A DNA stretch of 62,240 nt, taken from Sulfurospirillaceae bacterium. GTDB taxonomy: Bacteria > Campylobacterota > Campylobacteria > Campylobacterales > Sulfurospirillaceae. Every line of letters begins with the position of its first letter. The first letter of the stretch is position 1. The DNA lies in the NCBI GenBank assembly GCA_028693565.1, contig JAQUVE010000002.1:1-62240 (forward strand), given 5' to 3'. Position numbers and translations under genes: made by a program. The notes beneath the pieces are model-generated. The model was not told the DNA's origin. It was given only the letters and a program-made list of their open reading frames with translations, and did not search any database. Below are positions 39,551-42,088 of this stretch, one piece after another.

Positions 39551-40888
39551 GTGGAATTAATCGGATTATATCCTTTGTTCTATTTTCCGCAAATTGGTTC
39601 AGCTTGGCTGATGGGTATTACGGGTAGCATTCATATTATGGCATCGCATACGTCAGTAGGTGCTGCATTATTGTTTGCTTTTCTGGCACACAAAGCCTAC
39701 AAAGAAGATAGGCCAGAACTTTATGACTATATGAAAAAATATGGTATGTTTTTGGTTATTTTTTCTTATGTTATAGGATCTATCACTGGACCTGGTATTT
39801 GGTATACAGCAACAGCAGCAAGCCCTAGAGGCATTAGTGCGCTCATTCATAACTTTGTCTGGGTTTGGGCAACTGAATGGGTCTTCTTTATCGTTGAAGT
39901 CATTGGTGTTTTTACGCTTATTTATACAATTGGGAAAATTGATCGTAAAACACACCTAAAACTCACCTATATGTTTGCATTGGCTTCGGTATCAACGCTT
40001 TTCCTCATCATTGGTATCATCAGCTTTATGATGTGGCCAGGAACTGAAGCATGGTATCAAACAGGTTCCGCGAGTGATGCTTTCTTCGGTATTAACACCT
40101 TCCCACATATGTTCTTACGTATAGGTTTTATGATTCTTATGTCAGCTATCATAGGATTTATCATTAGTAGTGCATTGAAAGAGAAAGATCTTAGGAGTGA
40201 ACTAACACGTAAATTAGCTGTCATTGGTATGATTGGTGGACTTACAGTGCTTATGTCCTTTTTATGGTATGTTCAAACATTGCCACAAAATGCGTGGGAT
40301 CTCTTTCATGATGTTTTATGGGCTCGTGATGGTATGACACGTATTGTCATCGCCACTGTCATTACACTTTATTTAATTTTGGCATTTGTACTTCCTCGCA
40401 GTATCAACACTGTATTAGCCGTCGTTATGATGTTAGTTATTGGTGTTATTGGTGTTTGGCCAGGAGAAAAAATGCGGGAAAGTATGCGTAAACCTTTTGT
40501 CGCAGGTCGTTATATCTACAGTAATCAACTCATCGCACGTGATGTTCCTGGTAAACATGTAAAATCAGAAATGGCTCTCGTAGCAGAAAAAGGACTCTTA
40601 AAACTAGATCCTTTTATTCCTGATCATCTTCGAAGCATTACTCCAGAGAATCAACTTGAAGCAGGGCATTTGATTGCAAAAATTGCTTGTTCTAACTGCC
40701 ACTCTTTAGAAAAAGGTGCAAAATTTAGACCACTCCCCGATAAGTTTCCAGGTCTTGATGCTGCAACTATTGAGACGATACTAACAGAGGTTATTGCAAC
40801 TGGTGTACGTAGTTATATACCACCTATAAAACTACCAGACGATGAAACAAAAGCGCTAGCAGCTTGGCTTGCTACGCAAAATAAATAG
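39551..40888 (+). CDS. cydA: bd-type oxidase subunit I with C-terminal cytochrome c domain (OR-C-like)
   Basis: The GTG-started, 445-residue protein (AAGGAGGTG 6 bases upstream) is a divergent CydA. Helix 1 has the haem-ligand region GSIHIMASHTSVGAALL, then ATEWVFFIVEVIGVFTL with acidic residues, and NTFPHMFLRIGFM. The quinol-binding Q-loop and the GRQPW motif of ordinary CydA are absent. Instead the protein has EKMRESMRKPFVAG and a cytochrome c domain (about residues 370-445) with CSNCH and a PPIKLP region. This matches the OR-C branch of the bd family, in which a haem c is predicted near the C-terminus. It may draw electrons from a periplasmic cytochrome, not quinol. The next gene is its partner. 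Confidence 0.85.
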   Translation: MELIGLYPLFYFPQIGSAWLMGITGSIHIMASHTSVGAALLFAFLAHKAYKEDRPELYDYMKKYGMFLVIFSYVIGSITGPGIWYTATAASPRGISALIHNFVWVWATEWVFFIVEVIGVFTLIYTIGKIDRKTHLKLTYMFALASVSTLFLIIGIISFMMWPGTEAWYQTGSASDAFFGINTFPHMFLRIGFMILMSAIIGFIISSALKEKDLRSELTRKLAVIGMIGGLTVLMSFLWYVQTLPQNAWDLFHDVLWARDGMTRIVIATVITLYLILAFVLPRSINTVLAVVMMLVIGVIGVWPGEKMRESMRKPFVAGRYIYSNQLIARDVPGKHVKSEMALVAEKGLLKLDPFIPDHLRSITPENQLEAGHLIAKIACSNCHSLEKGAKFRPLPDKFPGLDAATIETILTEVIATGVRSYIPPIKLPDDETKALAAWLATQNK

Positions 40889-40897
40889 GAGGGCACT

Positions 40898-42088
40898 ATG
40901 GATATAGGTCTTGTATTAAATACGCTACGCGATCCTGCTGGCGTACCATTTTATCCCATTGTATTTCAAGCATTGTATATTTTAACGTGGGCATTGCATA
41001 TTGCATTTGTTCTTTTGGCATTAGGAGGCATTCCACTTGCTCTTATAGGTAACGCTAAAAAATCCATTGATGATAATTGGAAAAAATTAGGCGCGCATAT
41101 GACACAAGTTGCTAAAATTAGTGTATCAATCTTAATTGTCTTAGGTGTTGCTCCGCTATTGTTTACACAAGTCATTTATGATGCAAACTGGTATGTTACC
41201 AATACAATATCAGGACTTTGGGTTGTTGCATTTATTTACATTTTAATTCTTGCTTATTCTCTGTGGTATTGGTTTTATTATGCAAATAAAAACAATTCCC
41301 CTATTGCTGGGCTCGTTGGTGTTGTCTCTTTACTTGCTTTTGTAGGAGCAGGTGTTTTAATGCATGCCTTTGCTAATGAATCCATTCAACCTGAACAATG
41401 GATGAATTGGTATGCACCTAATGGGGTTATTGATACTTCGGGAACCAATTTACACATTGATATTTTGCGTTTAGCGTTCATGGTTAGCCTGAGCGCACCT
41501 GTAACTGGTATCTTTTTACTCAATTATGTTGATTATACCTCTAAATGTGATGGTTACACCGCAACATATCTCTCATTTGTTAAAAATCTTGGTAAAAAAA
41601 TTGCTACCGTAGGACTTCTTGTCAGTGCAGTACTTTTTGCCGTTTGGGTACTTACCTTGAATATGCTCATGAACCCTTTGGTCATTGCGATCGTTGTCGC
41701 TGTTCTTGTGTTACTATTCATGGTTATCAAAGAGAGTAATAGCTATATCACGACCCTTGTTTTAGTTGTAACAGCATTACTAATCTCAACTCTTCGAGAA
41801 GTTATTCGTATGAATATCATGAGTAAATATGGCTATAGTATTTATGACTATCCGATGAACATTGATTGGCCAACAGTCATTATGTTTCTTACAACATTCG
41901 TTGGAGTTGGGTTTACAGCAGTTGGGTTTATGCTCACTATGGCTTGGCGAGCAGGTCGTACAAAAGGTATTTATACCGCCGACGCTACTGTGACAAAACT
42001 GGCTAATGCAACAGTTGGCATTACCATTATTTGGGCATTAATTTTTCTTCTTTGGGGAATTATTACTGTCTTTAAAAATACGCTTTAA
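40898..42088 (+). CDS. Second subunit of the bd-type oxidase (CydA'-like)
   Basis: The 396-residue protein has about nine membrane helices. It opens with LRDPAGVPFYPIVFQALYILTWALHIAFVLLALGG, a pattern like the first helix of CydA with an internal histidine, and not like CydB. OR-C oxidases can pair CydA with a second CydA-type subunit (CydA') in place of CydB, so I propose that role. No haem c motif is seen. It starts 9 bases after the first gene with GGAGGG as ribosome site and ends before a strong terminator. Annotation pipelines may call it a hypothetical or cytochrome c-like membrane protein. Confidence 0.75.
   Translation: MDIGLVLNTLRDPAGVPFYPIVFQALYILTWALHIAFVLLALGGIPLALIGNAKKSIDDNWKKLGAHMTQVAKISVSILIVLGVAPLLFTQVIYDANWYVTNTISGLWVVAFIYILILAYSLWYWFYYANKNNSPIAGLVGVVSLLAFVGAGVLMHAFANESIQPEQWMNWYAPNGVIDTSGTNLHIDILRLAFMVSLSAPVTGIFLLNYVDYTSKCDGYTATYLSFVKNLGKKIATVGLLVSAVLFAVWVLTLNMLMNPLVIAIVVAVLVLLFMVIKESNSYITTLVLVVTALLISTLREVIRMNIMSKYGYSIYDYPMNIDWPTVIMFLTTFVGVGFTAVGFMLTMAWRAGRTKGIYTADATVTKLANATVGITIIWALIFLLWGIITVFKNTL

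Follow-up and report, generated by a model that had tools for sequence, protein, structure and literature searches.

The question raised by this locus is whether a two-gene operon of a Sulfurospirillaceae bacterium encodes a member of the cytochrome bd superfamily, a terminal oxidase fed by cytochrome c and not by quinol. The window is the whole stretch of DNA that was analysed, 62,240 nucleotides from contig JAQUVE010000002.1 (GenBank assembly GCA_028693565.1), read on the forward strand. Of the three bd families, one alone has retained a quinol site; for the rest, cytochrome c or some other compound is the presumed electron donor (PMC8509429; PMC10839748). Every bd enzyme characterised by 2021 was a quinol oxidase, the non-quinol families were predicted only, and a bd enzyme with a non-quinol donor was still to be obtained according to the 2021 review (PMC8509429). 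No later report characterising such an enzyme was found in the open-access literature. The gene pair described here is a real finding and belongs to a known, uncharacterised kind. It probably forms a two-subunit terminal oxidase of the bd superfamily whose electron donor would be a small soluble cytochrome c in place of quinol; this mechanism is plausible.

The coordinates given for the two genes in the initial annotation were correct, and the cytochrome c553 gene that it placed about 3 kb away is present. The genes of the locus are:

33937-34659 (+): OmpR-family response regulator (PF00072 and PF00486), a possible regulator in the same conserved neighbourhood, first codon uncertain
34616-35803 (+): sensor histidine kinase (PF00512 and PF02518), partner of the OmpR-family response regulator
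35797-36129 (+): second small c-type protein with one CxxCH, adjoining c553, conserved neighbourhood
36218-36514 (+): c553-type soluble cytochrome (PF00034), candidate electron donor, neighbourhood conserved in Sulfurospirillum
39551-40888 (+): subunit I gene, 445 aa, GTG start, with AAGGAGGTG ahead of the start
40898-42088 (+): subunit II gene, 396 aa, ATG start

The two subunit genes are separated by 9 bp. The c553 gene lies 3.0 kb upstream of the pair, with malate synthase G (36556-38727, opposite strand) in between. The pair is followed by genes for a diacylglycerol kinase and an EptA-type phosphoethanolamine transferase (42126-44087, minus strand). All three of these genes also flank the pair in relatives, in rearranged order.

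Subunit I matches PF01654 with an E-value of 8.5e-6, slightly short of the Pfam cut-off, and the same family is matched by 65 of 67 family members. A profile was built from 88 diverse homologues, and motifs were counted either on the 67 members or on the 88 homologues. Profile comparison of the membrane part with CydA gave P 4.4e-10 (column-reversed controls, 0.057-0.12). The similarity is one of remote homology spanning TM1-TM6, and the helix plan is shared up to TM8. Searches of PDB sequences with subunit I returned only cytochromes c and one borderline CydA match (E 3.2). A CydA match seen in Hydrogenobacter (G427:C4:36884) looked like chance and was set aside. Based on the ligand assignments of CydA, which include H19 for haem d (PMC8324918), the active-site positions of subunit I are:

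39632-39634 (+): H28, counterpart of H19 of E. coli CydA (the proximal haem d ligand); 88/88, from the profile alignment with CydA
39875-39898 (+): E109 to E116 in TM3, counterparts of E99/E107; E109 88/88, E116 87/88, exact pairing of E109 uncertain
40478-40495 (+): E310-x-x-R313-x-P315, matching E445-x-x-R448-x-P450, the GRQPW core with the ligand of haem b595; 88/88

The ExxRxP motif after TM8 was found in 67/67 family members and in all 11 CydA sequences tested. It is the best local profile match of the C-terminal regions, but taken alone it is not significant (P 0.22), and the pairing is one of motif and topology. The GRQPW motif had been called absent. The full GRQP is indeed missing from 67/67 family members, but the ExxRxP core, including the position of the haem b595 ligand, is invariant, and GRQPW is therefore only partly lost.

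The claim that the Q-loop is missing was confirmed. The stretch between the ends of TM6 and TM7 measures 42-52 residues in the 88 homologues, whereas canonical CydA has 93-177 residues between the end of TM6 and M393, a residue at the start of TM7; the Q-loop with its Lys/Glu pair is deleted in the family. The ligand positions of haem b558 vary as well. At the position of H186, His was found in 68 of the 88 homologues, Gln in 13 and other residues in the remainder, and no conserved Met was seen at the start of TM7 (M393 position), a region judged by eye. The Gln occurs in Burkholderia, Methylacidimicrobium and Thiomonas (L064, L073, L075, L077, L078, L081-L085, L088, L089 and L091), so members of the family may differ in a third haem.

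A maximum-likelihood tree separates the family from canonical CydA by a branch with 100/100 support and places the family outside the clade of ordinary quinol-oxidising CydA proteins; the tree holds 11 canonical CydA rows, and because of long branches the branching order among the deepest family members is uncertain. Judged from its sequence, subunit I is a bd-superfamily protein outside ordinary CydA that retains the active-site haem ligand residues.

TM9 is replaced in subunit I by a periplasmic cytochrome c domain with a single haem site, the CxxCH at residues 380-384. The C-terminal CxxCH that had been reported was found in all 67 members and all 88 homologues. Two positions of this domain are of interest:

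40688-40702 (+): CSNCH, haem c attachment site, invariant (88/88)
40817-40819 (+): I423, at the axial Met position of haem c; Met in 84/88 homologues

The four exceptions to Met423 are the members of the window's clade, and only these; they carry Ile, as do all clade members read from whole genomes. The domain has no other shared Met. With the axial Met missing, the haem c of the clade could be five-coordinate, re-ligated or of lower potential. The loss could tune the enzyme to its donor or signal an altered function, and it complicates a simple reading as cytochrome c oxidase in this clade. The loss of the axial Met, with Ile confined to the window's clade, is new here.

Subunit II has no family match and no CxxCH, and had been described as CydA-like and not CydB. 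In profile comparison it was aligned to subunit I over 264 columns (P 6e-10), with H34 paired with H28 and the alignment reaching through the RExxR region; a global alignment of the two subunits placed RE on RE. H34, R191 and R300 are invariant among 88 homologues, R304 was found in 87 and E301 in 84. Compared directly, subunit II gave P 0.002 with CydA and P 0.0007 with CydB, and because these two proteins share a pseudo-symmetric fold (PMC8951039), such weak values do not decide between them. The label CydA-like thus comes from the kinship to subunit I together with the histidine and the RExxR motif; the paralogy holds, but the direct score for CydA is no better than that for CydB. CydB was dropped as the main reading, as its P 0.0007 is much weaker than the value obtained with subunit I and PF02322 (CydB) is not among the families listed for the 67 members. 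Searches of PDB sequences with subunit II gave nothing meaningful. Subunit II is a CydA'-like paralogue of subunit I, and a CydA paralogue as second subunit corresponds to the CydAA'-type architecture. A divergent pair in other Campylobacterota (L178-L183, e.g. L178:1859-4578) has a C-terminal CxxCH on subunit II also, followed by thioredoxin-like genes, and is a predicted second version of the enzyme with two haems c.

Subunit II follows directly downstream of subunit I in 79 of 80 named loci, the remaining locus being a truncated contig (79/79 informative). The pair spans four phyla, Campylobacterota, Pseudomonadota, Verrucomicrobiota and Aquificota, and a remote version is found on Thermus plasmids. 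A small cytochrome c gene lies directly downstream, starting within 180 bp of subunit II, in every one of the 24 alpha-, beta- and gammaproteobacterial loci that had enough sequence. A Methylosinus plasmid shows this order too, with genes for a kinase and a response regulator after it. In Sulfurospirillum the pair is found, in two arrangements, near c553, the second c-type protein, the kinase and the OmpR-type regulator; two-component regulators adjoin it in several lineages. The operon in the window holds no donor gene itself, and the queries used detected no cytochrome c gene next to the pair in the majority of the other loci of Campylobacterota and Aquificales. As for the suggestion that c553 is the electron source, a cytochrome c remains the likely donor, but the best evidence comes from the 24 proteobacterial neighbours and not from c553 at a distance of 3 kb.

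The genome of the window (99.6% complete, 232 contigs) was searched for other respiratory components. No canonical CydA was found in it. It has one COX1 candidate of the size of CcoN across the genus, a candidate cbb3-type oxidase, and the bd-like enzyme need therefore not be the main respiratory oxidase. The bc1 cytochrome b was seen only as two partial matches on two contigs; bc1 is encoded in Sulfurospirillum genomes, and in one checked relative of the window a c553-like gene adjoins qcrABC. A 'cytochrome d ubiquinol oxidase' was reported in all eleven genomes of a Sulfurospirillum survey (PMC4794192). This label may in part conceal the present kind of pair.

The OR-C family of the cytochrome bd superfamily was reportedly described by Murali, Gennis and Hemp in 2021. 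Judged by described features, the pair is most likely a cytochrome c:O2 reductase of this known but uncharacterised family. It has the two traits attributed to OR-C in secondary sources (PMC8509429, PMC10839748), namely the absence of a quinol site and a cytochrome c module for electron entry. Both OR-C and the pair have a bd-superfamily catalytic subunit without quinol site, apart from quinol-oxidising CydA, and cytochrome c is the presumed donor of OR-C; the window's clade differs in having lost the axial Met and in the covarying leader RNA upstream. With canonical CydAB (qOR) the pair shares the positions of H19, E107, E445 and R448 in addition to the helix plan; it differs in the missing Q-loop, the incomplete GRQPW, the unconserved b558 ligands, the cytochrome c domain in place of helix 9 and the lack of a recognisable CydB. 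Two CydA-type paralogues in place of CydA and CydB are also known, by description, from OR-N and CydAA' (Nitrospirota and Nitrospinota; archaeal CydAA'), and cytochrome c is the presumed donor of OR-N, as proposed for the pair. The archaeal CydAA' is reported in a 2021 abstract to oxidise quinol. In Deltaproteobacteria a CydA fused to multiple c-type cytochromes occurs without cydB (PMC5322542); compared by description, it shares with the pair a CydA-like protein joined to cytochrome c and the absence of CydB, but has several haems c there and one here.

A route for the electrons may be proposed. Quinol would be oxidised by the bc1 complex, which would reduce c553 or a like cytochrome, and this in turn the periplasmic haem c domain of subunit I. 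From haem c the electrons would pass to two active-site haems held by H28 (TM1), the glutamates of TM3 and E310/R313, the latter predicted to lie just after TM8, beside the haem c domain. O2 would be reduced to water at these haems with protons from the cytoplasm. Subunit II has H34 and RExxR of its own; it would stand where CydB does and may itself bind haem. Cofactors, donor, electron path, O2 reduction and energy conservation are all predictions from the sequences. In favour of an oxidase fed by cytochrome c we counted that H28, E109, E310, R313 and CxxCH are invariant in 88 homologues while the H186 and M393 positions vary; the cytochrome c neighbours and the c553-like gene beside qcrABC favour, as an inference, the order bc1, c553, haem c and active site. 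Counted against it were the loss of Met423, the lack of a donor gene in the operon and of a cytochrome c neighbour in most other Campylobacterota and Aquificales, the P 0.22 of the C-terminal motif and the cbb3-type candidate. The proposal of a cytochrome c oxidase built on a bd scaffold is supported in part, by the missing quinol site, the invariant fused CxxCH and the cytochrome c neighbours, and is complicated for the window's clade by the missing axial Met.

The same complex could have another main substrate, serving as a protective reductase that removes nitric oxide, peroxide or traces of O2 with a minor part in respiration. We regard this as unlikely, although the genome has a cbb3-type candidate, the host bacteria live largely without oxygen, two-component regulators stand beside the pair in several lineages, and canonical bd enzymes detoxify NO too (PMC10839748). 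All residues of the O2 site of CydA are retained, and no recurring gene related to NO or peroxide was seen among the neighbours examined in a search that was not exhaustive.

Somewhat less likely still is the oxidation of quinol at a site other than the Q-loop, with haem c as internal relay or sensor. Such a site has been proposed for mycobacterial bd, where menaquinone was located near haem b595, away from the Q-loop (PMC8951039), and a haem c deprived of its axial Met in the window's clade would suit it. Against this stand the deletion of the Q-loop with its K/E pair, the variation at both b558 ligand positions, the invariance of the fused CxxCH and the small cytochrome c genes that adjoin the pair in Proteobacteria. 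That the complex is decaying in the window's clade, with divergence and the missing axial Met as marks of a failing enzyme, is very improbable: one Sulfurospirillum genome (G001) has only a remnant of subunit I, but both frames are open in 8/8 clade members, subunit I retains 81-94% identity with active-site residues and CxxCH intact, and the conserved, covarying leader and the strong ribosome site of the operon are still in place. The remnant (L019, G001:C1:116840-117136) is the cytochrome c end alone, with the kinase gene still adjacent.

The preferred reading of the pair as a cytochrome-c-fed oxidase would, if true, mean that the deletion of one loop and the exchange of one helix for a cytochrome c domain turned a quinol-oxidising bd scaffold into one that oxidises cytochrome c. 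The pair is compact and present in cultured Sulfurospirillum (e.g. S. diekertiae JPD-1) and in cultured proteobacteria such as Hydrogenophaga and Paraburkholderia, the proteobacterial pairs having a cytochrome c gene attached, which makes it a practical test case for such an enzyme.

Upstream of the operon the following elements were identified:

39222-39241 (+): two direct repeats of 11 bp (TTTAATATTAA TTTAACACTAA) in a promoter block, possible OmpR-family operator, putative function
39286-39405 (+): leader hairpin A at 39286-39324, then branched stem B from 39330 to about 39405, supported by covariation; covariance model R1
39423-39531 (+): leader stem C, a 24-bp perfect inverted repeat, supported by covariation

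Stem C is part of a leader of roughly 265 nt that is common to eight clade genomes. In the alignment of these, 90.2% of cells pair, compared with 85.2% in shuffles and 36-46% when the partners were slid. Nineteen pairs are changed on both sides, compared with 6.7 expected, and nineteen was reached in 0 of 500 shuffles; with only eight related sequences this count is not a probability, and the slid controls agree with it. No above-threshold match for the leader was found in Rfam. A scan with the covariance model located the full leader once per genome, solely ahead of the oxidase operon. A covarying leader RNA that is absent from Rfam and precedes the operon is new here. The 5' inverted repeat was ruled out as a mobile element or plain terminator, as it covaries in eight genomes and the model finds the oxidase leader only. 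A bulge of stem C contains the sequence ACCTCC (39450-39455), which in 7/8 sequences can base-pair with the Shine-Dalgarno sequence GGAGGT (39540-39545) and may act as a putative switch. A joint reading for the Sulfurospirillum clade, with a re-ligated or open sixth site on the entry haem c and a new leader RNA by which the ribosome site is masked or exposed upon a redox, haem or metabolite signal, is doubtful. If true, a cytochrome-c-driven bd oxidase would be controlled by a new riboregulator.

In S. deleyianum-like genomes an OmpR-type response regulator gene is likewise preceded by the promoter block and the stem B core, ATTNTACTCAANNAAGNCTTAAANNCTAAG (G003:C1:112378-112544, G002:C1:126683-126779 and G017:C16:9841-9915), a recurrence that hints at a shared regulatory element. 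Two further candidates were rejected. The sequence TTACATGTAA is no conserved part of the leader, as it is missing in the window and has hundreds of copies per genome elsewhere, and a TTAACATTAATTTAACACT box near a qcr cluster, which had suggested co-regulation, lies behind a kinase gene and not at the qcr promoter. Across genomes G001-G023, TTTTACATGTAA has about 400-600 copies per genome in many Sulfurospirillum (reversed control, 0-3), 45 copies in the window's genome and 20 in G010, with no exact copy in the window. On the closed chromosome of G002 the first 50 copies listed are all on the plus strand over 400 kb, and the sequence looks strand-polarised in the manner of Chi-, KOPS- or uptake-type sequences.
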